Shown here one piece after another: positions 542-9,981 of a stretch of DNA of 12,584 bases; within the stretch, counting starts at the first letter, position 1, and each line of letters begins with the position of its first letter. The notes under the pieces were generated by a model. That model saw nothing but the letters and a program-made list of their open reading frames with translations, did not search any database and was not told the origin of the DNA. The stretch covers positions 1-12,584 of the forward strand of contig JAKLHU010000018.1 in NCBI GenBank assembly GCA_022709995.1, read 5' to 3'. This DNA comes from Verrucomicrobiota bacterium. Lineage in GTDB: Bacteria; Verrucomicrobiota; Lentisphaeria; Oligosphaerales; Oligosphaeraceae. The position numbers and the translations under genes were made by a program.

Positions 542-2023
542 TCAAGTCGTATTGAATTCGAAGCGCCAGGTCCGTATGTCTATTTCACTCAACGGGATCA
601 TGAGCAGGTAGCGTTTGAGTTTGGCCAGCACGTTTTTAATGGTGCCGTACCATTCCAGCATCCGCCCGCGGATCGGGTGCCGGATGCGGTCCGGATTCTG
701 GTGCTGCTGCAGCCGGCGAAACAGGCTGCTGTGCAGGATGAGTTCCAAGATGAGGTGGGCGATTTGCACCATGTGGTAGTAGTTGAGTCCCGCGTGTCCC
801 GTTGTGCCGAACGCCTCTTCCAGTCCAAGCCCGTGACATTTCTGCACTTTGAATGATTCTTCGATTTGCCAGCGTGGTCGACTGATCCGGTCGAGCACCT
901 GTGTGACCTTCCTTTCGTTGAGAAAAATGGTTGTCGCATAGACGGATCTTTCCGTCTCTTTCTTGTCATTGACCTTGGCCATCGCCAGGACGTTCAGGTC
1001 CACTTCCGTTTTCCCGAACGTGTGCTTCACGTGATTGGTCCATGTCACCTTGCGCCTCCGCCGATCCACGGGGTCGTCGTCTTCGAGCCGGTTCCTGGGG
1101 TCGGCGGCCATTCTCCGATCGGCCTCCGCCAGGAAGGCCGGGGTCTTGTCATTGACCGTCACCGACAGCCCCCAGCGGTTTTCCCGGACCAGGTTGACGA
1201 TGTCCTCGCAGAGGTAGAGGCCGTCGAGCAGGATGATGATCGGCAGCCGGGGATGGCTTGCCTTCAGCCGGGGCAGCAGTCTCTTGGCCGCTTCGAGCTC
1301 GCAGTCCTGCTTGACGTAATCCTTGCCCTTGGGGTTTTCGATGAATTCGGTCATCAGGGGGATCCGGATGCCGTCCGGGCAGACGATTTGCGCCTCCAAC
1401 GCCATCAGCATATAGTCGACCGTGCCATCGGCATGCGTCCGGCGGGTGGAATGCGGCAGTTCCCGGCGCGACGTGTGGTAATGGACGCCGTCAATGGCGA
1501 CGAGAAAGCATTTCCCCCCGGTGACCGCCGGGTCGGTCCGCATGTCGTCCAGGATCTTGTTGCGGATGGCCCGGTCCACCATCTTGGCGCGCACTTCCGC
1601 TAGCTCCATGGGGTCAAGCCTCTCCATGGAATACTTCAGGGTGTCCGAATGCGGCAGCCTCTCCAGGCTGCAGCCGCTCAGCCGGTTGACGTTGTCCAGA
1701 AAGACCCGTTCGTCCTGTTCATAGTCGGTGTCGCGATTGGCGTCGTTGGCCATCAGCCGCGCCAGGAGGCACAGCCAGGCAACGCCGCGCATGGGGTAGA
1801 CGATGCGGTCCTGCCGCCGGAAATCATCGATGTCGTCCAGGTACCGGTTGAAGCCGGGGAAAAAGGCCTCTACGGCTCGGATGAGGTCTCCGTGGTTGAT
1901 GCCAGGATCGCGTTCCTGCGCTTTGCGGCCCGGGCGCGCGGCACGTGGAGCCGGATCACCCTTTCCGCCAGCTCGTCGATTTCTTTCATCAGCTTCTTGA
2001 TGCGCTTGTATTCGTTTGTCCAT
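542..2023 (-). CDS. IS4-like DDE transposase
   Basis: This transposase cuts and rejoins DNA at the IS ends. From the ATG at 2023-2021 (493 residues), the first DDE aspartate is D178 (VAIDGVHYH), the second is D267 (IILLDGLYL), and the glutamate is E388 in RWQIEESFKVQK. This last stretch fits the IS4 signature R-x3-E-x6-K (K395), although the usual Tyr three residues before the Arg is Ser here. The clearly conserved protein begins near GDLIRAVEAFFPGF, after the stop of the upstream gene. The only in-frame ATGs are 2023, with GAGG 7 bases upstream but inside the accessory gene, and 1792, which would lose conserved sequence. The frame is -1 relative to the accessory gene, so translation may use the overlapping ATG or a -1 frameshift. 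The first ~45 residues are Arg/Pro-rich and may be only a by-product of overlap. No frameshift or stop interrupts the catalytic part. Confidence 0.85.
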   Translation of the reverse strand: MDKRIQAHQEADERNRRAGGKGDPAPRAARPGRKAQERDPGINHGDLIRAVEAFFPGFNRYLDDIDDFRRQDRIVYPMRGVAWLCLLARLMANDANRDTDYEQDERVFLDNVNRLSGCSLERLPHSDTLKYSMERLDPMELAEVRAKMVDRAIRNKILDDMRTDPAVTGGKCFLVAIDGVHYHTSRRELPHSTRRTHADGTVDYMLMALEAQIVCPDGIRIPLMTEFIENPKGKDYVKQDCELEAAKRLLPRLKASHPRLPIIILLDGLYLCEDIVNLVRENRWGLSVTVNDKTPAFLAEADRRMAADPRNRLEDDDPVDRRRRKVTWTNHVKHTFGKTEVDLNVLAMAKVNDKKETERSVYATTIFLNERKVTQVLDRISRPRWQIEESFKVQKCHGLGLEEAFGTTGHAGLNYYHMVQIAHLILELILHSSLFRRLQQHQNPDRIRHPIRGRMLEWYGTIKNVLAKLKRYLLMIPLSEIDIRTWRFEFNTT

Positions 2024-2265
2024 TGCTCGACCTCGTCGGCCAGGCCGACTGGTATGTAGATGGCCTTGGTCTTGCCGGCGACCTTGCTGGTGACGGCATA
2101 AGCCGAATGCGGCTCGCCCCCGTTGGCGCAGGCGCAGGCCGGGTTGCCGCAGCGGCGCCGCTTGCGGACAAACGTGCCGGACAGGAACAGCCCGGCCTTT
2201 CCCAAGGCTCGGATTTTTGCATGCATCCGGGCCTTGAGCGTGTCGACCGATTCGGGCATTTCCAT
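1870..2265 (-). CDS. DUF6788-family IS accessory protein
   Basis: This small protein (131 residues from 2265) carries the typical DUF6788 core: GTFVRKRRRCGNPACACANG, then GEPHSAYAVTSKVAGKTKAI and YIP. The Cys-containing motif CGNPACAC could bind metal, and a charged helix (EQWTNEYKRIKKLMKEIDEL) follows. Members are often found just upstream of transposases; their role is unknown. Three ATGs compete (2292, 2271, 2265). AAGGAG (2279-2274) is 8 bases before the 2265 ATG but only 2 before 2271 and downstream of 2292, so 2265 is the best start. The gene ends with TAG at 1872-1870, inside the start region of the transposase, whose frame is -1 relative to it. The promoter is at 2327-2356. Confidence 0.75.
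   Translation of the reverse strand: MEMPESVDTLKARMHAKIRALGKAGLFLSGTFVRKRRRCGNPACACANGGEPHSAYAVTSKVAGKTKAIYIPVGLADEVEQWTNEYKRIKKLMKEIDELAERVIRLHVPRARAAKRRNAILASTTETSSEP
2031..2034 (-). promoter_or_regulatory. Possible ribosome binding site for transposase start
   Basis: GAGG on the minus strand (2034-2031) lies 7 bases before the ATG at 2023 that opens the transposase frame inside the accessory gene. It supports internal initiation, but such a short match occurs often by chance in GC-rich coding DNA. Confidence 0.3.
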
Positions 2266-2307
2266 GGCCATGACTCCTTGTTGACAACGCAACCCGTTGA
2301 TAATAAA

Positions 2308-2422
2308 CCGTATAAGTACGGCTCAGATAATATACCTTGCAAGGCAGGGATTTCAATGTGTTGCGATAAAAAAAACCAAAAAATCAAGGGCGGGAAAATA
2401 AGACGTATAATTACGGCTCAAA
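2308..2422. repeat. Direct repeat pair CGTATAAkTACGGCTCArA
   Basis: Two 19-base copies, 2309-2327 and 2404-2422, match at 17 of 19 positions and lie 95 bases apart in the same orientation. Each contains an inverted core: CCGTA/TACGG in the first and CGTA/TACG in the second. They flank the IS promoter. They could be transposase or repressor binding sites near the IS end, or the footprint of an earlier insertion. They are not arranged as terminal inverted repeats of the element. Confidence 0.5.
2327..2356 (-). promoter_or_regulatory. IS promoter, sigma-70 type
   Basis: On the minus strand TTGAAA (2356-2351) is followed 16 bases later by TATATT (2334-2329), or 18 bases later by TATTAT (2332-2327). 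Both are close to consensus and point at the DUF6788-type gene starting at 2265. The palindrome CCGTA-TAAG-TACGG (2308-2321) sits just after the -10 box, at about the transcription start, a place where an operator or attenuating hairpin could act. Confidence 0.5.
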
Positions 2423-2531: not shown

Positions 2532-2674
2532 GATAATCCGTAATCGGTCACCCATTGATAACTGGCGGCTGAGGGGAATTGGCGTGATCAAGTAGGCGCC
2601 TCAGGCCCTGAGGCGCCCAAGCGTTGACTCCTCTATAGCTCAGTTATCAATCGAGGACCGATTACGATAATCCG
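2532..2674. repeat. MITE-like palindromic element with flanking direct repeats
   Basis: Arms 2539-2564 and 2641-2666 are inverted copies of 26 bases, matching at 22. CGTAATCGGTC and ATTGATAACTG are exact; the four bases between them differ. The middle holds a near-perfect palindrome (2595-2617): GGCGCCTCAGG, one base, CCTGAGGCGCC. GATAATCCG occurs at both outer edges (2532-2540 and 2666-2674) in direct orientation, overlapping the arm ends by one or two bases, as a target-site duplication might. There is no reading frame inside. The layout suggests a non-autonomous transposon or REP-like cruciform element. It lies just upstream of the aminotransferase operon and could also affect its transcription. 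Confidence 0.7.
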
Positions 2675-2696
2675 CGCATCCGGCAAGGGGCGGCGA

Positions 2697-2725
2697 TTGC
2701 AGGGCGGGCCGCCAGCGGCTACAGT
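2697..2725 (+). promoter_or_regulatory. Possible promoter of aminotransferase-hydrolase operon
   Basis: TTGCAG (2697-2702) and TACAGT (2720-2725) are 17 bases apart and lie about 70 bases before the aminotransferase start. Both match consensus only partly. It is offered as the best candidate in the stretch between the palindromic element and the gene. Confidence 0.25.
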
Positions 2726-2785
2726 ATAGGCAAAGGCAAAACTGATGCTGCGACGTTCCGGTTTTGACCATGGCGTTCCCAAGCT

Positions 2786-2791
2786 AAGGAG
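2786..2791 (+). promoter_or_regulatory. Ribosome binding site AAGGAG fixing the aminotransferase start
   Basis: AAGGAG is directly followed by one ATG (2792, spacing 0) and by another 6 bases away (2798). Normal spacing selects ATG 2798 as the start, trimming two residues from the longest frame. Confidence 0.7.
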
Positions 2792-2797
2792 ATGGCA

Positions 2798-4060
2798 ATG
2801 AGCACGACGGACTGCAAGTATGGCATGGAAGAAGTCATGGAACTCCTCGACGTCTTCAATGTCTCCCCCTCGACCGCCGCGAAAATCCGCTGCCTGTTGA
2901 CGGAAGACCCCGACGGCCCCAATGGCGGCGTGTTTTTCCGCTACTACAACCCGCGCAGCAAGACGGTTGAGCTGGAGAAGCGTTTCGCGGCCCATGTCGG
3001 CGTCAAGCATGTCCTGGCCGTCAATTCCGGCACCAGCGCTTTGATTGCGGCCCTGGTCGCGGCCGGCATCGGTCCGGGGGATGAAGTCATCGTGCCGGCC
3101 TACACGTTTTTCGCCACGGCGTCGGCCGTCGTGGTGGCCAAGGCGATTCCCGTCATTGCGGAGATTGACGAGACGCTGACGATATCCCCGGACGCGGTCG
3201 AGCGTCTGATAACGCCGCGGACGAAGGCGATCATTCCGGTCCACATGCTCGGGTTGCCGGCGCGCATGGACGCGTTGTGCGCGCTGGCGAAGAAGCACCG
3301 CCTGGTGGTGATTGAGGACACCGCCCAGGCCTGCGGCGGCACGTTCCAGGGGCGCCATCTGGGCACGTGGGGCGACTTTGGCTGCATCAGCTTCGACGCC
3401 TACAAGATCATGGGGACGGGCGAAGGCGGGGTGCTGATGACCAATGATGATTTCTACTACACCCGTGCGCAGAGCTACCACGACACCGCCGCCTGCTGGC
3501 GACCGGAACGTTTCGGCCGGGAACGCATGCCCGGCGAACTGTTCTGCGGCGAGAATTACCGTATGAACGAACTGTCGGCCGCCGTCGGTCTGGCCCAGCT
3601 GCGGCGTCTGGACTGGACTATCGCCCGGATGCGGGAGCGTTATCACCAGATCCGGAACAGCTTGTCCCTGCCGGCGGGAATCAAATGGCTCGAACCGGCT
3701 GATCCCACTGGCGTCTGCGGCTCTTCCCTGGCGATGCTGTTTGACGAGGAAGACCATGCGGTGCGGGCCCAGAAGGCGCGGCTGGTCGGCGGCAATGCCT
3801 TGAATGACACCCGCGGGGTCCGCGATTGGCACCTGGCATGGAACTGGGAACACATCCTGGAGGAAAAAAGCGCGACAGCGGAGGGATGTCCATTCCATTG
3901 TCCATTCGTTAAGGAACGGCCGCACTATACCGTTGATTCCTGGCCTCGGAGCCGTGCCATCATGCGGCGACTGGGGTTGATCACCATCACCCCGCAGATG
4001 ACCGAGCAAGCCGCCAAAGACCTGGTGGAGAATGTGCAGAAGGGCTTGGCCGTATGCTGA
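2798..4060 (+). CDS. DegT/DnrJ/EryC1/StrS-family PLP aminotransferase
   Basis: This 420-residue protein belongs to the sugar aminotransferase family, which transfers an amino group to keto-sugars, usually nucleotide-linked, with pyridoxal phosphate. Fold-type I landmarks are in order: NSGTSAL (N76-L82) for phosphate binding, DEVIVPAYTFFATA, EDTAQACGG with the cofactor aspartate D174, and SFDAYKIMGTGEGG with the Schiff-base lysine K203, then NYRMNELSAAVGLAQL. The length fits the family. The C-terminal domain (RDWHLAWNWEHILEEKS and the Cys/His patch CPFHCPF) is less familiar and may shape substrate choice. There is no signal peptide, so it is cytoplasmic. The start at 2798 is set by AAGGAG. The stop overlaps the next gene's start (ATGCTGA), indicating coupled translation with the hydrolase. 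The substrate is unknown; a catabolic or regulatory relative of the family is possible. Confidence 0.9.
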   Translation: MSTTDCKYGMEEVMELLDVFNVSPSTAAKIRCLLTEDPDGPNGGVFFRYYNPRSKTVELEKRFAAHVGVKHVLAVNSGTSALIAALVAAGIGPGDEVIVPAYTFFATASAVVVAKAIPVIAEIDETLTISPDAVERLITPRTKAIIPVHMLGLPARMDALCALAKKHRLVVIEDTAQACGGTFQGRHLGTWGDFGCISFDAYKIMGTGEGGVLMTNDDFYYTRAQSYHDTAACWRPERFGRERMPGELFCGENYRMNELSAAVGLAQLRRLDWTIARMRERYHQIRNSLSLPAGIKWLEPADPTGVCGSSLAMLFDEEDHAVRAQKARLVGGNALNDTRGVRDWHLAWNWEHILEEKSATAEGCPFHCPFVKERPHYTVDSWPRSRAIMRRLGLITITPQMTEQAAKDLVENVQKGLAVC

Positions 4061-4857
4061 AAGAACTCCAGGTCGAGACCAATCCGGCCCTGGACAATGC
4101 CGCCGGGGTGGTGCCGCGAGGACTTTTGCGGCTGGAATATGGCAGCCCGGGCTGTCCCCGGGACCGCGATTGGGCTCTGGTCTATCCAACGGCGCCGGCC
4201 GGCCTCGGAGTTGTCGTCATTCATGGGCATGGCAGCACCGGCGACCAGCTCTACACCCGTCCTGACCTGAAGCACCATGCCGGGTTTCTGCGCTCGCTCG
4301 GGCTCGGCATCCTGACCCCGAACCTGCGGGGAAATGCCTGGATGGCGCCGCCCGCCGGCCAGGATCTGGCCGAACTGATCACTTTCGCCAAAACGACCTA
4401 CGGCTGGCGAAAAGTCATTCTCGCCTCCGGGTCCATGGGCGGAACCAGCAACTTGATTTTTGCGGCCCAGCATCCGGAACTGGCCGATGCGGTGGTGGCG
4501 AACAGCCCCGCGACGGATTTGGCCCGCTACGCCGCGTGGTGCGCCGAACGGCCGTTGTCCATTTGCCAACAGATCGCCGACGCGATCATGACGGCCTATC
4601 ACCACGACGCGGCGTTGCTGGCCCGTCATTCGGCCTGCGCCCTGGCCGACCGGCTGACCATGCCGGTCTGGCTTCGACATGGCGATGCCGATCCCATCAT
4701 CCCCGTCTCCGAATCACGCGCCCTGGCCTCTTGCCTGGCGAACAAGGCGGACTTCAGTTACCGGGAAATCCCGGACGGCGGCCATGACGCGGCCATGCCC
4801 TGCTTTGCCGCAGGCGTGGCCGCCGCCGCCGACGTGCTGTCCGCCGCCGAGTCGTGA
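4054..4857 (+). CDS. Alpha/beta hydrolase (esterase or S9-peptidase-like)
   Basis: This 267-residue protein has an alpha/beta hydrolase fold. VVVIHGHGSTGDQ near residues 50-62 is the HG oxyanion region. SGSMGG holds the likely nucleophile S127, HGDADPIIP the acid D213, and DGGHD the histidine H244. In the nucleophile elbow the usual first Gly of GxSxG is Ser (SGSMG). There is no signal peptide or membrane segment, so it is probably cytoplasmic. Its ATG overlaps the aminotransferase stop by 7 bases, and GAAGGG lies 9 bases upstream, so the two are likely translated together. Likely roles are deacylation of a sugar or another small ester; the substrate is unknown. A 26-base sequence from its 3' end is repeated just past the stop. 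Confidence 0.85.
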   Translation: MLKELQVETNPALDNAAGVVPRGLLRLEYGSPGCPRDRDWALVYPTAPAGLGVVVIHGHGSTGDQLYTRPDLKHHAGFLRSLGLGILTPNLRGNAWMAPPAGQDLAELITFAKTTYGWRKVILASGSMGGTSNLIFAAQHPELADAVVANSPATDLARYAAWCAERPLSICQQIADAIMTAYHHDAALLARHSACALADRLTMPVWLRHGDADPIIPVSESRALASCLANKADFSYREIPDGGHDAAMPCFAAGVAAAADVLSAAES

Positions 4858-4886
4858 GACCCGCCGCCGACGTGCTGTCCGCCGCC
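4823..4886. repeat. 26-bp exact direct repeat across the hydrolase stop
   Basis: The 26 bases at 4823-4848 are repeated exactly at 4861-4886, a 38-base period. The first copy encodes the last residues of the hydrolase (ADVLSAA); the second follows the TGA. Because 38 is not a multiple of 3, the duplication changes the reading of the end: the first copy ends AADVLSAAES, and the second, in its matching frame, would end ADVLSAAHRARPSRVVA. This suggests a slippage or tandem duplication at the gene's 3' end. Confidence 0.75.
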
Positions 4887-4959
4887 CATCGCGCTCGCCC
4901 CAGCCGCGTTGTGGCTTGAGCCGGAAAAGCTGGTGTTTTGGGGTTGTCGTCAAGCGGGC

Positions 4960-4999
4960 AGCCCTGGCTCTTGAGTATAGGGCTCGATTGAACTTTTTG
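4960..4999 (+). terminator. Weak terminator candidate after the hydrolase
   Basis: AGCCCT (4960-4965) pairs with AGGGCT (4979-4984) around a 13-base loop. A TTTTT run follows only 9 bases later. The stem is short and the T-run displaced, so termination is uncertain. It is the only terminator-like site in 4858-5003, which otherwise shows nothing beyond the direct repeat. Confidence 0.25.
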
Positions 5000-5003
5000 C
5001 GGA

Positions 5004-5212
5004 TGCAATAATCCAATGGGATATTTGTCCCATTGTCCTATCCACCGTCCCATACGTCTTATATGTCTTATAGGTCCCATATTCTTCACTTATGCGTAGT
5101 ACAGGCTGGAAACATGGGACTTATAGGACGGCGAAATAGGACGTATGGGACGTATGAGACGTATGGGAAGGCACATAGGACAATGGGACGAATAGGCACT
5201 GGCGTTATTGCA
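5004..5212. repeat. Large inverted element made of 9-base TATGGGAC-type repeats
   Basis: The right arm (about 5114-5194) carries tandem 9-base units (TATGGGACG, TATGAGACG, TATGGGAAG). The left arm (about 5022-5090) carries the same units on the opposite strand. Pairing is exact over 15 bp (GTCCCATTGTCCTAT with ATAGGACAATGGGAC). Further in, most differences are A/G, which become G-U pairs in RNA. Outer arms TGCAATAA (5004-5011) and TTATTGCA (5205-5212) are exact inverses and may mark the ends. An alternative 8-bp hairpin, CAATGGGA (5014-5021) with TCCCATTG (5028-5035), competes with the long stem. The central loop is about 5091-5113. No protein is supported inside. Similar short-unit runs are known from Lentisphaerae and planctomycete-type genomes (from memory). 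It may be a non-autonomous repeat family. Confidence 0.7.
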
Positions 5213-5720
5213 GTCGCCGAAAGCCAAACCCTACGTACGGCAGGCTGAAGCGGATGTGGGTCGTCACACGCTGCCGACCGGGCTGGACAACGCGACTCCG
5301 GCAGTGGCCGGGACCGGCGTCGGGAATGGCATGGACAGCCTTCCGGCTAAAACGGAAAGGCAGCCGGGACTGGCGATCCGCGGTTGCGTTTGCCGTTATC
5401 CGGCAGCGTATTGGGCCGTCTTGGCCGGGCAATCAGTGACATGGCGTCTCGAAGTCGGATCTCCCCCGCCGCTGCGGCTGGAGTTTTTCCGGCTCTGCCG
5501 CCCGTGCCAGCGCCCGGCCGGGAGTCATGGAAAACTCTCTTTGCCGGGAAAACACGCCATGGCCGCATTAGGAAAGAGAGCATTGCGGGGCATATTATCT
5601 CCTGTCGGTGTCCCGGGTGTCCCTGATTGGGGCGCCGGCGGTAGTTTTTCCGGTATGGTCATCATGTCTTGCCCGGGTTTTCGCCGGCTCTGTCCGGCCG
5701 TCACGATGGGGGTTGTCGCC
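5213..5720. other. 508-base gap without a convincing gene
   Basis: The frame of the large downstream gene stays open through this stretch back to an ATG at 5208 inside the inverted element. The translation is compositionally poor (Arg/Pro/Gly-rich, no domain, several Cys), and a signal peptide begins only at 5721. I therefore treat it as a leader or non-coding DNA. An imperfect inverted repeat near 5480-5535 (GAGTTTTTCC against GGAAAACTC) surrounds a GC-rich palindrome (CCCGGCCGGG). An AT-rich CATATTAT (5591-5598) could be a -10 box for the downstream gene, but no good -35 is visible. Confidence 0.5.
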
Positions 5721-8700
5721 ATGAAGAATCATCTTATGTTGACGATGCTGGCGGCCATGGCTATCCATGGCATTGCCCAGGAAGCGGTGACGCATGCTTT
5801 TTCCGGCCCCGGGGACTGGGAACCATCCCGCCGGGACAGTTTCTCCGCCGACGGCGTCTGCGCGGTCAGGGGCAACGGCGAGCTCTATGCGACTTCGGAC
5901 CTGATGGCGGTCAATCCCGAGGGGAAGACCGTCTTGAGCGGCGAGTTCAAACGCCTGCCCGCCGCCGGGAGTGACGCGAAATTCTGCTTTGCGCTGATTA
6001 CGTATGACCGTTATATGCGGCGTCTGGATGGCATCCATGTCAATGTCAGGCCCGGCACCGCCACGGAACTGGCCGCGGCCTGCCAGCCGGAGGACACCGT
6101 CCTGAAAGTCCGGAACGGGGCCAAGATCCTGCCGCATCATTATATTGTCTTCAACGCCAAGGATGATTTGTCCGACCTTCCGAACCGCCATGTCAACCGC
6201 CGCGCTCCGGTGACGGGCGTCGTACGCGTATCCGACGGCGTGTGGGAAGTGACTCTGAAGGAAGCGGTCGGCGAGGCGGCGGCCGCCGGCGCCAAGATTC
6301 GCGCCCATGAGGACAGTCCGTATCTGTATGCCGGGGCGTTCATGCAGCCGATACCGGAGGATTGGACTACCGTGACCGGGACCATCCAAGGCATGGCGCC
6401 TGGCAGCCACCGGGACAAGTGGCGGCCAGGAACGGCCTTCGTCCGGGTGGGAATCTGGGGGTTTTCGCCAACCAAGGAGCTGTTTCTGGCGTTCCGGAAC
6501 ATCACCCTGGCCGCGGCCGGCGGCGACGCCGGCGTGCCGGATCAGGCGGTGCGAGTCCCGGACCGCACCTGGGAGACGCGGCTCCGCCTGAACGTATCGG
6601 CCGAACCCAAGGCCATCCGCCTGCATTTCGGCGACGGAACGGCGCAGGGCATCGTGCTTTCCGTGTTTGACGACTATTTCCGGGATGCCGGCCAGACCAG
6701 CGACACCATCCTGCCCATGGCGGGCCTCGACGTGCAGCCGTTCAATGCCCGTTACCGGATGCGGCCGGGAGAGTTCAGCCCCGGCCAGAAAACCCCGGCC
6801 GAGCGTCTGGCGGCCTGGGGCGAGGCCCAGGCGATTTTGGGCCGGCCCTATGCCTTGGCCTTCCGGCAGACGGCCGCCGGTGTCGAAGTTTGGCTGAATG
6901 GCTCGTACATCGGCGTTTTGGCGGTCAAGGCGCCTTTGCTTGCCGTCAGCGGCGATGACGTCACCGCCGCGCTTGTTGACTTCAGGCCTGGCGCCGGGGG
7001 CGCCCCCGGCGACCAGGGCGCCGGCATGGTGCCGATCGACCTCGCTGGCAAAGGCCGCCCTGGCGCCGCCTGGGGCGGGGAGGCCACCCTGAACTTCAAG
7101 TCGGACGCCGTTGCCGCGCTGCCGCCCTTTCCCTTCGCGAGTCCCGCCGGCCTTGATCTTGGCCTGACGGCACGCCAGGCAAACAATGGCGATGCAACGG
7201 TCAGCCTGGCGGAAACACCGTCGTCGTTTATTTTCACGGTGCCGGCCGCCCAGTACACCCGGGCCTGGGTGCTGTTCGCTCTGGATGACGCCCCGGACAA
7301 AGACGCCTGCTTCAATGCCCGCCTGACGCGCTATAATCGCATTCCCGGCCAGAAATACGCCGGCCGCAGCTACGCCAGCCTCGCCAACACCCTGGTTGAA
7401 GACGTGTCAACCGCCCACGTGGTCGGCGCCGTGACCGCCGGCGGCCGCGAACGGCCGTTGCTGCTTCTCGAAGTGCCTCTGGCCAGCGGCGATATCCAGG
7501 ACATCATCTTCACGGACCAGCGTGCTTCGCATGCCTTGCGGAAGGGGCGTTACCTCGATTTCGAATTGTCCGGCCGGCCCTATCGCCGGCGTTTGCCGTT
7601 CGGGGATACGCGCCATTTGCCCGACCCGGGGAAGGTCAGCGCCGTGCAAGTCTTTGGCCTGACCTTGGAGACCTCGCCGGCCGAGATGGAAGTGCGGTCG
7701 GTCCAGGTCGGCAATATATTCCATTCCGGCGAGACCCCGGAGCTCGTCGTCGCCGTGCGGCCGCAACGGCCGGGAGACTACCGGCTGCGCTGGCAGATTC
7801 GCTCGGCGGAGGGACAGGTCGTCGGTGACGGCGAACGCGACGTGCCAGCTGACGCCGCGTCCGAGCATGCCTTGAGTCTGGCGCAGCCTGAGCTCGGCTG
7901 GTATGAAATCGCCATCAGCCTGTGGTCGGGACGGCGTCAGTTGTTGACGCACCAGGCGTCCTTTGCGCTTCTGGGCGAGGACACGCGTCAGGCCGGCCTG
8001 GCTGATTCACCTTACGGCAGCTGGTGGTATGGCGGGGCGCATTACACCCCGAGCCGGGTCGAAGAAGTCGGGCCGCTGTTCCTCAAGGCCGGCATGCGGC
8101 GGGCACAGGGAGCCGATCGCTATACCGAGGCCGAAATGGCGCCGTGGAAACTGGGGCCGCCTTGCGTGCGGCTGCCGCGCGACCTCAACGCCACCAAGGA
8201 GGAAATCATCACGGCCGTCCAGAACAGCCTCGAAAAATACCCGAGCGTGCGCAACGCGATGATCTTCCATGAACACGCCAAGTCTGGCTACCAAATCGCC
8301 CCGGAGCTGCTCGGCCGGAAGCCGCGGCCGGAAGACGCCTGGCCAGACGCCGACCAGCGCCTCGCCTTCGCCCTCCGCGTCGGACAAGCCCTGCGGGAAA
8401 ATTTTCCGCAGTTGAACATCACGATCGGCAATTCTCTCGCCTCGACGGAACTGGTGGCGGAAGTATTGCGCGGCGGCTTTCCGGAGGCGTATGCGGACTA
8501 TGTCGGGCTGGAAGTCGTCGGCCGCGATTCGTTGCCGGAGCGGCAGTGGGAGGCGTCTCTGCAGGCTGGCGATTTGATGTTGCAGACGGTTCGCGCGTTC
8601 GGCTGTTCCTGGCGTCTGAACGCGTGCTTTGAAAGCAATTACCGCATGGACGCCCAGATTGGCGCCGAGCGCCAGGCCGAGTGGTACGTGCGCGACCTTC

Positions 8701-9905
8701 TGGTTTCCCAGTCCTGGGGCTTCCGCGATATCTTCATCGGCATCATGTTCGACGTCGGCAACGACTATGCCAATTCCCCCTGGGGCTCGACGGGATTGTG
8801 CACGCGGCCGCCATACACGTATCCGAAAAAGTCGTACGTGGCGGTGGCCGTTGCCACCAAGATGCTCGACCAGGTGGTCGGCCGCAGGGCCATTCCGACC
8901 GGTTCGGAATCGGTCTATGCCCAGGAATTCACCCGGCGCGACGGCCGCGTGGTCACGGCCTTGTGGACTTCACGGGGGACGGCGGAGCTGACGTTGACCA
9001 CCAACGGCGCCGCCCTCCAGGTTTTCGACCTCTATGGGCGGGCGGCCGAGACCCGGCCCAATCCGCCTCGGCGCGAACCGGGGAACCGGCTGACGCTGAC
9101 CGCCGGCACGGCGGCAACGTACATTCTGGCGGCGGCGCCGTCCATCCTGGCTATCGTCTGCGGCCGCCGCGACTATCCCGACGACCAGCCGTCGGCCGGC
9201 GCCATCACGGTCAAGCGCCTTGACCGCGCCGACGACTGGCGCCTGGCCGCCGTCGACGAGCCGCTCCTGGAGCGGACGACCGGCCTTTTCATGCCTTACC
9301 GGACCCGTGGCGATTATGCTCTGCGGCAAGTCCAGGACGACGAACAGGGCTCCTGTCTGGAACTGGAACTGGTCCGGCCGGATTTGGCTTTGCCGACCGT
9401 GTTCTGGGAATACGCGGTGCTGGAACTGCGGGAGCCGGTGGAATTGTCCGGCGAGCCGCATTCCATCGGGATGTTCGTCAAGGGCAATTCCGGCTGGGGA
9501 CAGGTTTATTGGATAGTCGAGGACGCCGCCGGCCGGCGGCGCGTCTCCTGCGGCACCCGCATTCACAACGCCGATGTGTTTGACTATAATGGCCGGGTGT
9601 CGCTCTGCTTTGACGGCTGGAACTTCGTCAGCCTGCCGGTGACGGGGCAGTCGTCCATTCCCGATGTGTCCACCGGGACGGTGGCCAACCTCTGGGAATA
9701 CGGGACCGTGGCCGCCGATGGCACGTTCAAGCGCGGCCCGGCTGACGTGCAATGGCCGCTGAAGCTGGTCGGCATCGGTTTCGCCGCCCAATCGCGGCCG
9801 CTGTTTCTGACTGAACGGCGGCCGTACCGGCAGGCGGTGCGTTTCAGCGCCGTCGCGGCCTTTGACCACGCCAAACCCGACCAGGTCAAGGAAACACCCC
9901 GCTAA
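5721..9905 (+). CDS. Large secreted multi-domain glycoside-hydrolase-like protein
   Basis: This protein has 1394 residues. A Sec signal peptide (MKNHLMLTMLAAMAIHGIA, likely cut after A19) sets the start at 5721; GGGGG lies about 8 bases upstream. Regions I infer in order are: beta-rich carbohydrate-binding-like segments (about 20-250); a concanavalin/LamG-like segment (about 275-405, with VEVWLNGSYIG); further beta sequence; an Ig-like segment (about 654-755); and a TIM-barrel-like catalytic region (about 763-1065) starting SPYGSWWYGG. A post-barrel beta domain (to about 1140) and a C-terminal beta module follow. E851 (IFHEHAKSGY) and E971 (NACFESNYR), 120 residues apart, are plausible acid/base and nucleophile residues of a clan GH-A type enzyme. 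No exact family is recognised, so activity and substrate are unknown. The gene ends in tandem stops TAA TAG, with the next gene starting within about 90 bases and no clear terminator. Confidence 0.8.
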   Translation: MKNHLMLTMLAAMAIHGIAQEAVTHAFSGPGDWEPSRRDSFSADGVCAVRGNGELYATSDLMAVNPEGKTVLSGEFKRLPAAGSDAKFCFALITYDRYMRRLDGIHVNVRPGTATELAAACQPEDTVLKVRNGAKILPHHYIVFNAKDDLSDLPNRHVNRRAPVTGVVRVSDGVWEVTLKEAVGEAAAAGAKIRAHEDSPYLYAGAFMQPIPEDWTTVTGTIQGMAPGSHRDKWRPGTAFVRVGIWGFSPTKELFLAFRNITLAAAGGDAGVPDQAVRVPDRTWETRLRLNVSAEPKAIRLHFGDGTAQGIVLSVFDDYFRDAGQTSDTILPMAGLDVQPFNARYRMRPGEFSPGQKTPAERLAAWGEAQAILGRPYALAFRQTAAGVEVWLNGSYIGVLAVKAPLLAVSGDDVTAALVDFRPGAGGAPGDQGAGMVPIDLAGKGRPGAAWGGEATLNFKSDAVAALPPFPFASPAGLDLGLTARQANNGDATVSLAETPSSFIFTVPAAQYTRAWVLFALDDAPDKDACFNARLTRYNRIPGQKYAGRSYASLANTLVEDVSTAHVVGAVTAGGRERPLLLLEVPLASGDIQDIIFTDQRASHALRKGRYLDFELSGRPYRRRLPFGDTRHLPDPGKVSAVQVFGLTLETSPAEMEVRSVQVGNIFHSGETPELVVAVRPQRPGDYRLRWQIRSAEGQVVGDGERDVPADAASEHALSLAQPELGWYEIAISLWSGRRQLLTHQASFALLGEDTRQAGLADSPYGSWWYGGAHYTPSRVEEVGPLFLKAGMRRAQGADRYTEAEMAPWKLGPPCVRLPRDLNATKEEIITAVQNSLEKYPSVRNAMIFHEHAKSGYQIAPELLGRKPRPEDAWPDADQRLAFALRVGQALRENFPQLNITIGNSLASTELVAEVLRGGFPEAYADYVGLEVVGRDSLPERQWEASLQAGDLMLQTVRAFGCSWRLNACFESNYRMDAQIGAERQAEWYVRDLLVSQSWGFRDIFIGIMFDVGNDYANSPWGSTGLCTRPPYTYPKKSYVAVAVATKMLDQVVGRRAIPTGSESVYAQEFTRRDGRVVTALWTSRGTAELTLTTNGAALQVFDLYGRAAETRPNPPRREPGNRLTLTAGTAATYILAAAPSILAIVCGRRDYPDDQPSAGAITVKRLDRADDWRLAAVDEPLLERTTGLFMPYRTRGDYALRQVQDDEQGSCLELELVRPDLALPTVFWEYAVLELREPVELSGEPHSIGMFVKGNSGWGQVYWIVEDAAGRRRVSCGTRIHNADVFDYNGRVSLCFDGWNFVSLPVTGQSSIPDVSTGTVANLWEYGTVAADGTFKRGPADVQWPLKLVGIGFAAQSRPLFLTERRPYRQAVRFSAVAAFDHAKPDQVKETPR

Positions 9906-9981
9906 TAGGCGCCCCAGGGCCGGGGTCGTCGGCTTCGGCACCATATGAATGACGGCAAGCGCGAACATCTCAAATCAAGAC

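Follow-up and report, generated by a model that had tools for sequence, protein, structure and literature searches.

The stretch of DNA analysed here (the window) comprises 12,584 nucleotides from a Verrucomicrobiota bacterium, and its positions 5004-5212 hold two arrays of 9-base units (TATRRGACN) that face each other. How this arrangement arose, and whether its predicted RNA fold matters, are the questions that the locus raises. A first, sequence-only reading had proposed either that the RNA fold matters or that one arm is a recent fold-back duplication of the other. The features it described are all present in the sequence: the facing arrays, 8-bp arms in which TGCAATAA (5004-5011) is the exact reverse complement of TTATTGCA (5205-5212), and a block of exact 15-bp pairing between 5027-5041 and 5175-5189. 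A repeat search of the window identified inverted-repeat arms of 88 nt, 75% complementary, at 4993-5080 and 5136-5223, and the inverted repeat therefore extends past 5004-5212. The feature is real and non-random, and a composite of mobile repeats is its most likely origin.

Read from left to right, the window element consists of a reversed tail module (R), an array, a leader module (L), a second array and a second R, with the following features:

4968..5041, minus strand: tail module R, subfamily b, inverted, in the left arm (nhmmer E 2.2e-16, model 4-78)
5004..5011, plus strand: left 8-bp arm TGCAATAA, internal to R and not an element end (sequence; nhmmer)
5027..5041, minus strand: left copy of the 15-bp pairing block, part of R (ATAGGACAATGGGAC; R-hit comparison)
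5047..5081, minus strand: left-arm 9-mer array GTCCCATAC GTCTTATAT GTCTTATAG GTCCCATA (sequence; exact pattern matches 5047-5081)
5076..5142, plus strand: leader module L, CCCATATTCTTCACTTATGCGTA...GGCTGGAAACATGGGAC...AAATAGGAC, which contains the hairpin loop (nhmmer E 3.3e-20 over the full model, 1-67)
5143..5171, plus strand: right-arm 9-mer array GTATGGGAC GTATGAGAC GTATGGGAAGG (sequence)
5172..5230, plus strand: tail module R, subfamily a, in the right arm (nhmmer E 3.7e-17, model 1-59 of 81)
5175..5189, plus strand: right copy of the 15-bp pairing block, part of R (sequence; R-hit comparison)
5205..5212, plus strand: right 8-bp arm TTATTGCA, internal to R and not an element end (sequence; nhmmer)
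5231..5251, minus strand: first bases of another dispersed repeat (AGCCTTCAGGCTGCCGTACGTAG type), directly adjoining the truncated right tail (sequence)

The 8-bp arms had been taken for the outer bounds of the element, a view that does not hold because both lie inside R, which reaches 4968 in the left arm and 5230 in the right. L shares bases with the last unit of the left-arm array. The left-arm R lacks the outermost bases of the module (GAGCAT and beyond) and the right-arm R stops short of the terminal GAGTATTGG, where it meets the AGCCTTCAGGCTGCCGTACGTAG-type repeat, which also precedes L at several other loci in the same genome. The two R copies of the window are 71% alike over 56 aligned bases and fall in separate parts of the tail tree, which contains at least two tail subfamilies. 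Each has much closer counterparts elsewhere: the left-arm R is 93% identical to a copy on contig C18 and 91% identical to one on C201, and the right-arm R matches a copy on C69 with 98% identity over 57 bases. As read from this arrangement of modules, the window element most likely represents two members of one repeat family, placed head to head, rather than a self-contained fold-back.

The existence of such a family, anticipated as copies elsewhere in the genome, was borne out. The genome of origin (G000) is a fragmented MAG, 64% complete, whose 692 contigs total 2.93 Mb and in which the window element gave 76 BLAST matches at ~40 places, many of them running past 5212. Our set of 40 loci consisted of the window and 39 further stretches from this genome, and two modules account for them, with 9-mers in between: the leader L (CCAATGCTCTTCACTTATGCGTAACTCTGGCTGGAAACATGGGAC...AAATAGGAC) and the tail R (...ATAGGACAATGGGACGAATAGGCACTTGGGTTATTGCAGTCGCCCAAAGCCAAACCGAACCCTAAACTAAGGAGTATTGG). 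Across the 40 loci, nhmmer returned 37 L hits, 7 of which span just the array-proximal end and one of which (L049, E 3e-7) is doubtful, and 41 R hits, including one pair at L054 that overlaps across both strands. L and/or R occur at 39 of the 40 loci; L084 has neither, and L076 and L080 have a partial L only. R lies downstream on the same strand for 25 of the 37 L hits, in most cases with an array between, and L accompanies 24 of the 41 R hits. Since 12 L hits lack R and 17 R hits lack L, many copies are partial. To the question whether copies share the 8-bp arms the answer is that some do: TTATTGCA is exact in 12 of the 41 R hits and has at most one mismatch in 24, but it is not shared by the rest; the 15-bp block behaves similarly (exact in 12/41, at most one mismatch in 25/41).

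A complete core is typically ~170-190 bp long and consists of CCAATGCTC (CCAATRCTC), the leader, a few 9-mers (consensus GTATRGGAC), the tail and GAGTATTGG. The two ends are imperfect inverted repeats that match at 13 of 20 positions, a match equalled by 6 of 20,000 shuffles. Conservation drops past the core ends (27 left and 30 right ends compared), sharply on the right and less so on the left, where the boundary is not sharp because four columns outside it (-11, -6, -5, -2) stay conserved at 1.1-1.3 bits. The family core seems, then, to terminate in the short inverted repeats CCAATRCTC/GAGTATTGG. The composite order of the window recurs on C676 (L048), at 86% identity to the window, and in a more decayed form on C277 (L058). 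On C108 (L075:1631-2074), a reversed R-array-L core shares a 444-bp unit with AGCCTTCAGGCTGCCGTA-type repeats, and the 25-bp ends of this unit (GGTTAATGTGCAAAATGTGGTGAT...) are perfect; because of this larger unit, the true mobile unit may differ from the core. C6 (L128:2525-2820) carries a ~296-bp unit with ends similar to those of the C108 unit, less perfect, and no array. These two MITE-like units have 23-25-bp ends (GGTTAATGTGCAAAATGTGGTGA) and differing interiors, and only that of C108 holds an array core. Since the C108 and C6 units differ, cores, arrays and other repeats have been joined in several ways.

The copies are intergenic, 38 of the 39 loci being clear of genes called by a crude codon model. 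In the window, the upstream genes encode a DegT-type aminotransferase and an alpha/beta hydrolase by Pfam, in agreement with the context proposed earlier. The 'large hydrolase' proposed downstream is unsupported because the 1565-aa ORF there had no Pfam match at E <= 0.001; in the crude codon model its start is probably near 5706 rather than 5208. This ORF (5706-9905, plus strand) is large, has by eye a signal-peptide-like start, and lies within a block that both of the named relatives compared here lack at this locus. Those relatives, the two that match the neighbouring hydrolase gene, are both Lentisphaerae MAGs (ADurb.Bin082 and AS22ysBPME_247); they match window positions 2667-4832 and then diverge, and only AS22ysBPME_247 resumes, at 9973. 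Homology in both ends right after the hydrolase gene, so neither offers an empty-site allele of the window locus, and the element therefore sits in a replaced block.

Closer relatives were more informative about the family as a whole. Two genomes of the same genus, G001 and G002 (both 91% complete), gave 0 and 1 matches to the element, respectively. Seventeen of the 39 loci were probed with paired flank anchors; 10 were collinear in G001 and/or G002, and the remaining 7 were not collinear within a short distance and are uninformative. None of the 16 orthologous stretches from the 10 loci carried an array of two units or any hit to L or R at E <= 1, and L087 and L088 likewise lacked all three. 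Orthologous alignments were viewed for L048, L069, L070, L051, L049, part of L053, L071, L078, L086 and L064. L070 (on C257) is a clean insert, with G001 and G002 both continuous across the site. Most other loci are not clean single inserts, the spacers of the relatives being either shorter or of equal or greater length with other sequence and repeats, and at the C108 locus ~1.5 kb is replaced relative to G001/G002, with no clean site. The idea that relatives would show empty sites was thus upheld by absence in 16/16 stretches and a clean case at L070, but there is no such case at the locus of the window element. A clear target-site duplication was not seen by eye at L070 or at the ends of the C108 and C6 units. 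Other intergenic minisatellites, of TTAGTGGAC, GAGGGGC and CATTCAG types, occur at L071, L064, L086 and L065 and in the relatives' stretches L160, L167 and L162; the TTAGTGGAC array at L071 is common to G001 at the same site.

A search for the enzyme that might move these copies found no partner. Ten genes beside sites of the 25-bp end repeats were scanned, and none matched a transposase family; those with a match fall into ordinary families of metabolism, transport or regulation. The window itself contains an IS-like transposase gene (542-2356, minus strand; weak DDE_Tnp_1_assoc match), for which G019 has a relative of 72% identity and C47 of its own genome two more pieces. As a partner for the family it was rejected: G019 has it without an array match, and G010, which is without it, has 38 matches. 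No terminal repeats of this transposase were found in the flanks tried.

We consider it probable that the window element is two members of a non-autonomous, dispersed intergenic family with a leader-minisatellite-tail plan, joined head to head, and that its hairpin is most likely a by-product. In the window, a truncated array-and-tail copy on the minus strand stands head to head with a leader-array-tail copy on the plus strand, and the hairpin is long because the units of the two copies are alike. Cores would insert into spacers between genes, as their absence in the sister species, clean at one site, suggests. A transposase recognising the CCAAT ends would probably move them in trans. Mosaic joins, and an orthologous array with a different unit (below), suggest that arrays would then change by slippage, conversion and recombination, and that recombination would also join cores to one another and to other repeats. 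The hairpins may conceivably affect nearby transcripts.

The foremost alternative is that the hairpin is a functional RNA or a bidirectional, BIME-like transcript-end structure that stabilises or ends transcripts, so that inverted arrays are kept. The fold itself speaks for such a role. The RNA of the window element has a predicted energy of -103.3 kcal/mol, compared to -55.7 +/- 4.2 for 200 dinucleotide shuffles, with z of -11.3 on the plus strand and -9.7 on the minus strand; strong folding persists in the C676 composite (-95.4 kcal/mol; z -8.2 relative to mononucleotide shuffles); and inverted array pairs are common, accounting for 17 of the 39 array clusters in our loci and 5 of 8 in G034. 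However, the decayed composite L058 folds only weakly better than its mononucleotide shuffles (-88.6 vs -75.6 +/- 4.8), 22 of the 39 own array clusters lie on a single strand, and changed pairs are kept near chance. Between the window and L048, 6 of 17 changed stem pairs were kept (4.7 expected, 1.4 SD above), one of them through a two-sided change, and paired and unpaired sites changed at equal rates (18/168 and 4/41); between the window and L058, 14 of 33 were kept, 2 by two-sided changes, with 10 pairs gapped. This comparison comprises three sequences only (window, L048 and L058). Rfam gave no match at E <= 1 in 4500-5600, a T-run follows the main hairpin on neither strand by eye, and promoter and terminator scans showed nothing above chance; the single terminator-like site (0.9 expected) is a small stem at 5230-5244 on the minus strand, whose tail lies in the right R end. 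Nor is there enrichment at convergent genes: among 26 loci with both neighbours called, 16 pairs are co-directional, 6 convergent and 4 divergent, compared to 49, 12 and 8 for adjacent called genes at the same loci, a background that includes the 26.

The arms pair because all units are alike. In seven folded hairpins, of which L108 gave no in-register unit pairs, Watson-Crick pairing was found at 137 of 160 positions within facing units. Facing separator (free ninth) bases were complementary at 6 of 20 positions, or 10 of 20 with G-U; separator complementarity was therefore rejected as a sign of arm copying. We conclude that the window fold follows from unit similarity and that selection on it is unsupported, which, with so few composites, is an absence of support and not a disproof. 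A functional RNA or transcript-end structure accordingly seems to us improbable.

Still less probable is a REP/BIME-type element mobilised by a Y1 (RAYT) transposase. The excerpted text of PMC3733652 describes REP/BIME and GTAG/CGTC-tagged palindromes as single short palindromes associated with Y1-type transposases, and the window family resembles them as a set of small intergenic repeats that form hairpins and occur as singletons and dimers in several orientations, head-to-head pairs included. G034, moreover, combines 13 Y1 matches with hairpin arrays. In contrast to the elements of that account, however, the window family is built of tandem 9-mers, and its own genome, at 64% completeness, has 0 Y1_Tnp (PF01797) matches; G007 and G023 also bear arrays yet lack Y1_Tnp, although 33 of 40 genomes have it.

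The distribution of the 9-mer bears on a further alternative, that spacers simply fill with short tandem repeats by minisatellite drift, with no mobile carrier. Among 387 genomes, all of the same phylum, 24 (own included) contain three exact units in a row, under 11 family labels by our own count; a reversed-pattern control occurred in 0/387. Match counts were 36 in G007, 38 in G010 and 23 in G023; matches exceed places as overlapping ones are counted, and in G336, with 35 matches, ten listed places lie in one array. In G008, G010, G034, G056 and G190, no array cluster out of 48 reaches into a called gene, with 52-77% of the stretches called coding. Unit position 2 is A in 54/64 units of the own genome, 91/102 of G008, 32/34 of G034 and 23/27 of G010, and in 38/72 of G056/G190; position 4 is nearly always A or G; and most units in every group keep G, A and C at positions 6-8, the lowest being G010 (17/27 each). 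These counts refer to the unconditioned unit beside a seed pair, and overlapping seeds count units repeatedly.

What surrounds the arrays differs among genomes. With arrays masked, flanks match one another (E <= 1e-4) inside the own genome (496 pairs, 45 clusters), G056, G190, G034, G010 and G008, and between genomes, in the groups compared, just for the same-genus pairs G056/G190 and G008/G023. In 20 stretches from ten further genomes, outside this comparison, flanks look unrelated between genomes by eye. Arrays of G034 have their own GC-rich hairpin carrier, and most of those in G056/G190 adjoin a GC-rich GGCGGC-type hairpin. The stretches L116-L127 (G056, G190) show short 9-mer arrays, mostly with GGTAGGAC before and the GC-rich hairpin after, and represent another repeat family, from a distantly related family of the phylum. 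In G008, arrays are nearly free-standing, with 2 flank pairs among 15 clusters. An orthologous locus with near-identical flanks carries GTCCTATAC/GTCCCATAC units in G008 (L093) and GTCCCCTAC units in G023 (L178); arrays therefore turn over as a block. At another G008 array (L091:1658-1767), the right flank is a dispersed repeat of high copy number, matched dozens of times in G023 and G017. A pattern scan of IMG/VR returned 8 contigs, at least one of which (L134) looks like a collagen-type coding repeat; L135, L137 and L138, labelled viral, have four-unit arrays between GC-rich flanks.

Drift would account for the scarcity of shared flanks in G008, and orthologous spacers do carry TTAGTGGAC, GAGGGGC and CATTCAG arrays. 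Nevertheless, it cannot alone explain the family because leader and tail are shared among the masked flanks of the own genome, and for the window we give it only a very small chance; arrays of the G008 type may still have arisen in this way. Least probable of all is that one arm was recently duplicated by fold-back or gave rise to a hairpin-mediated palindrome, which would explain the 88-nt inverted arms at 75% complementarity but is unsupported because those arms come from different tail subfamilies, 71% alike and 93-98% identical to copies elsewhere, with facing separators that are seldom complementary.

Returning to two mobile repeat copies joined head to head, the closest known kind appears by comparison to be a BrickBuilt-type MITE, and the window family may work like one rather than be one, since unit length differs (9 vs 23). 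According to the excerpted text of PMC4596501, BrickBuilt of Porphyromonas gingivalis has a 23-nt unit and 19 copies, with no BLASTn match outside the species. In both families a leader and a tail, with small inverted repeats at the ends, enclose a tandem array; BrickBuilt is described there as always intergenic, with partial copies common, long predicted stem-loops and no Rfam match, and the window family is similar in plan. Unlike BrickBuilt as described in that excerpt, the window family has a 9-mer unit, at least two tail subfamilies, head-to-head composites and ~40 places in a 64% complete MAG, and its unit is also found in further genomes of the phylum, flanked there by other sequence. 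The TAACTGA heptamer repeats, reported in an excerpt of PMC4679880 from Beggiatoaceae, Cyanobacteria and Bacteroidetes and lying, in one of the genomes, for the most part immediately before start codons, share with GTATRGGAC the pattern of one short intergenic arrayed unit in distant lineages with no evident spreading mechanism. They differ in being heptamers, and between that excerpt and our data a leader/tail carrier is described for the window family alone. No description of the repeat was found in the excerpted open-licence PMC papers searched, including PMC6749651, and the array string was absent from them. The family, whose unit is unusual, is apparently undescribed in this literature.

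It is possible, if unlikely, that the GTATRGGAC unit belongs to no single mobile element, that a factor conserved across Verrucomicrobiota-type bacteria (a protein that binds the DNA, or an enzyme for writing or extending the unit) places and maintains intergenic arrays of it, and that MITEs of individual lineages took the arrays as cargo or as landing sites. An odd hairpin can in any case now be read as a family, in which copies, subfamilies and element-free sites are recognised, and it illustrates that very strong predicted RNA folding can arise when two repeat copies meet head to head. Distant members of a single phylum carry the same degenerate 9-mer array in intergenic positions, and its flanks are not shared among them. 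If something recognises or writes the 9-mer, this would point to a new host or mobile function; if nothing does, the arrays would be a clear case of convergent minisatellites.
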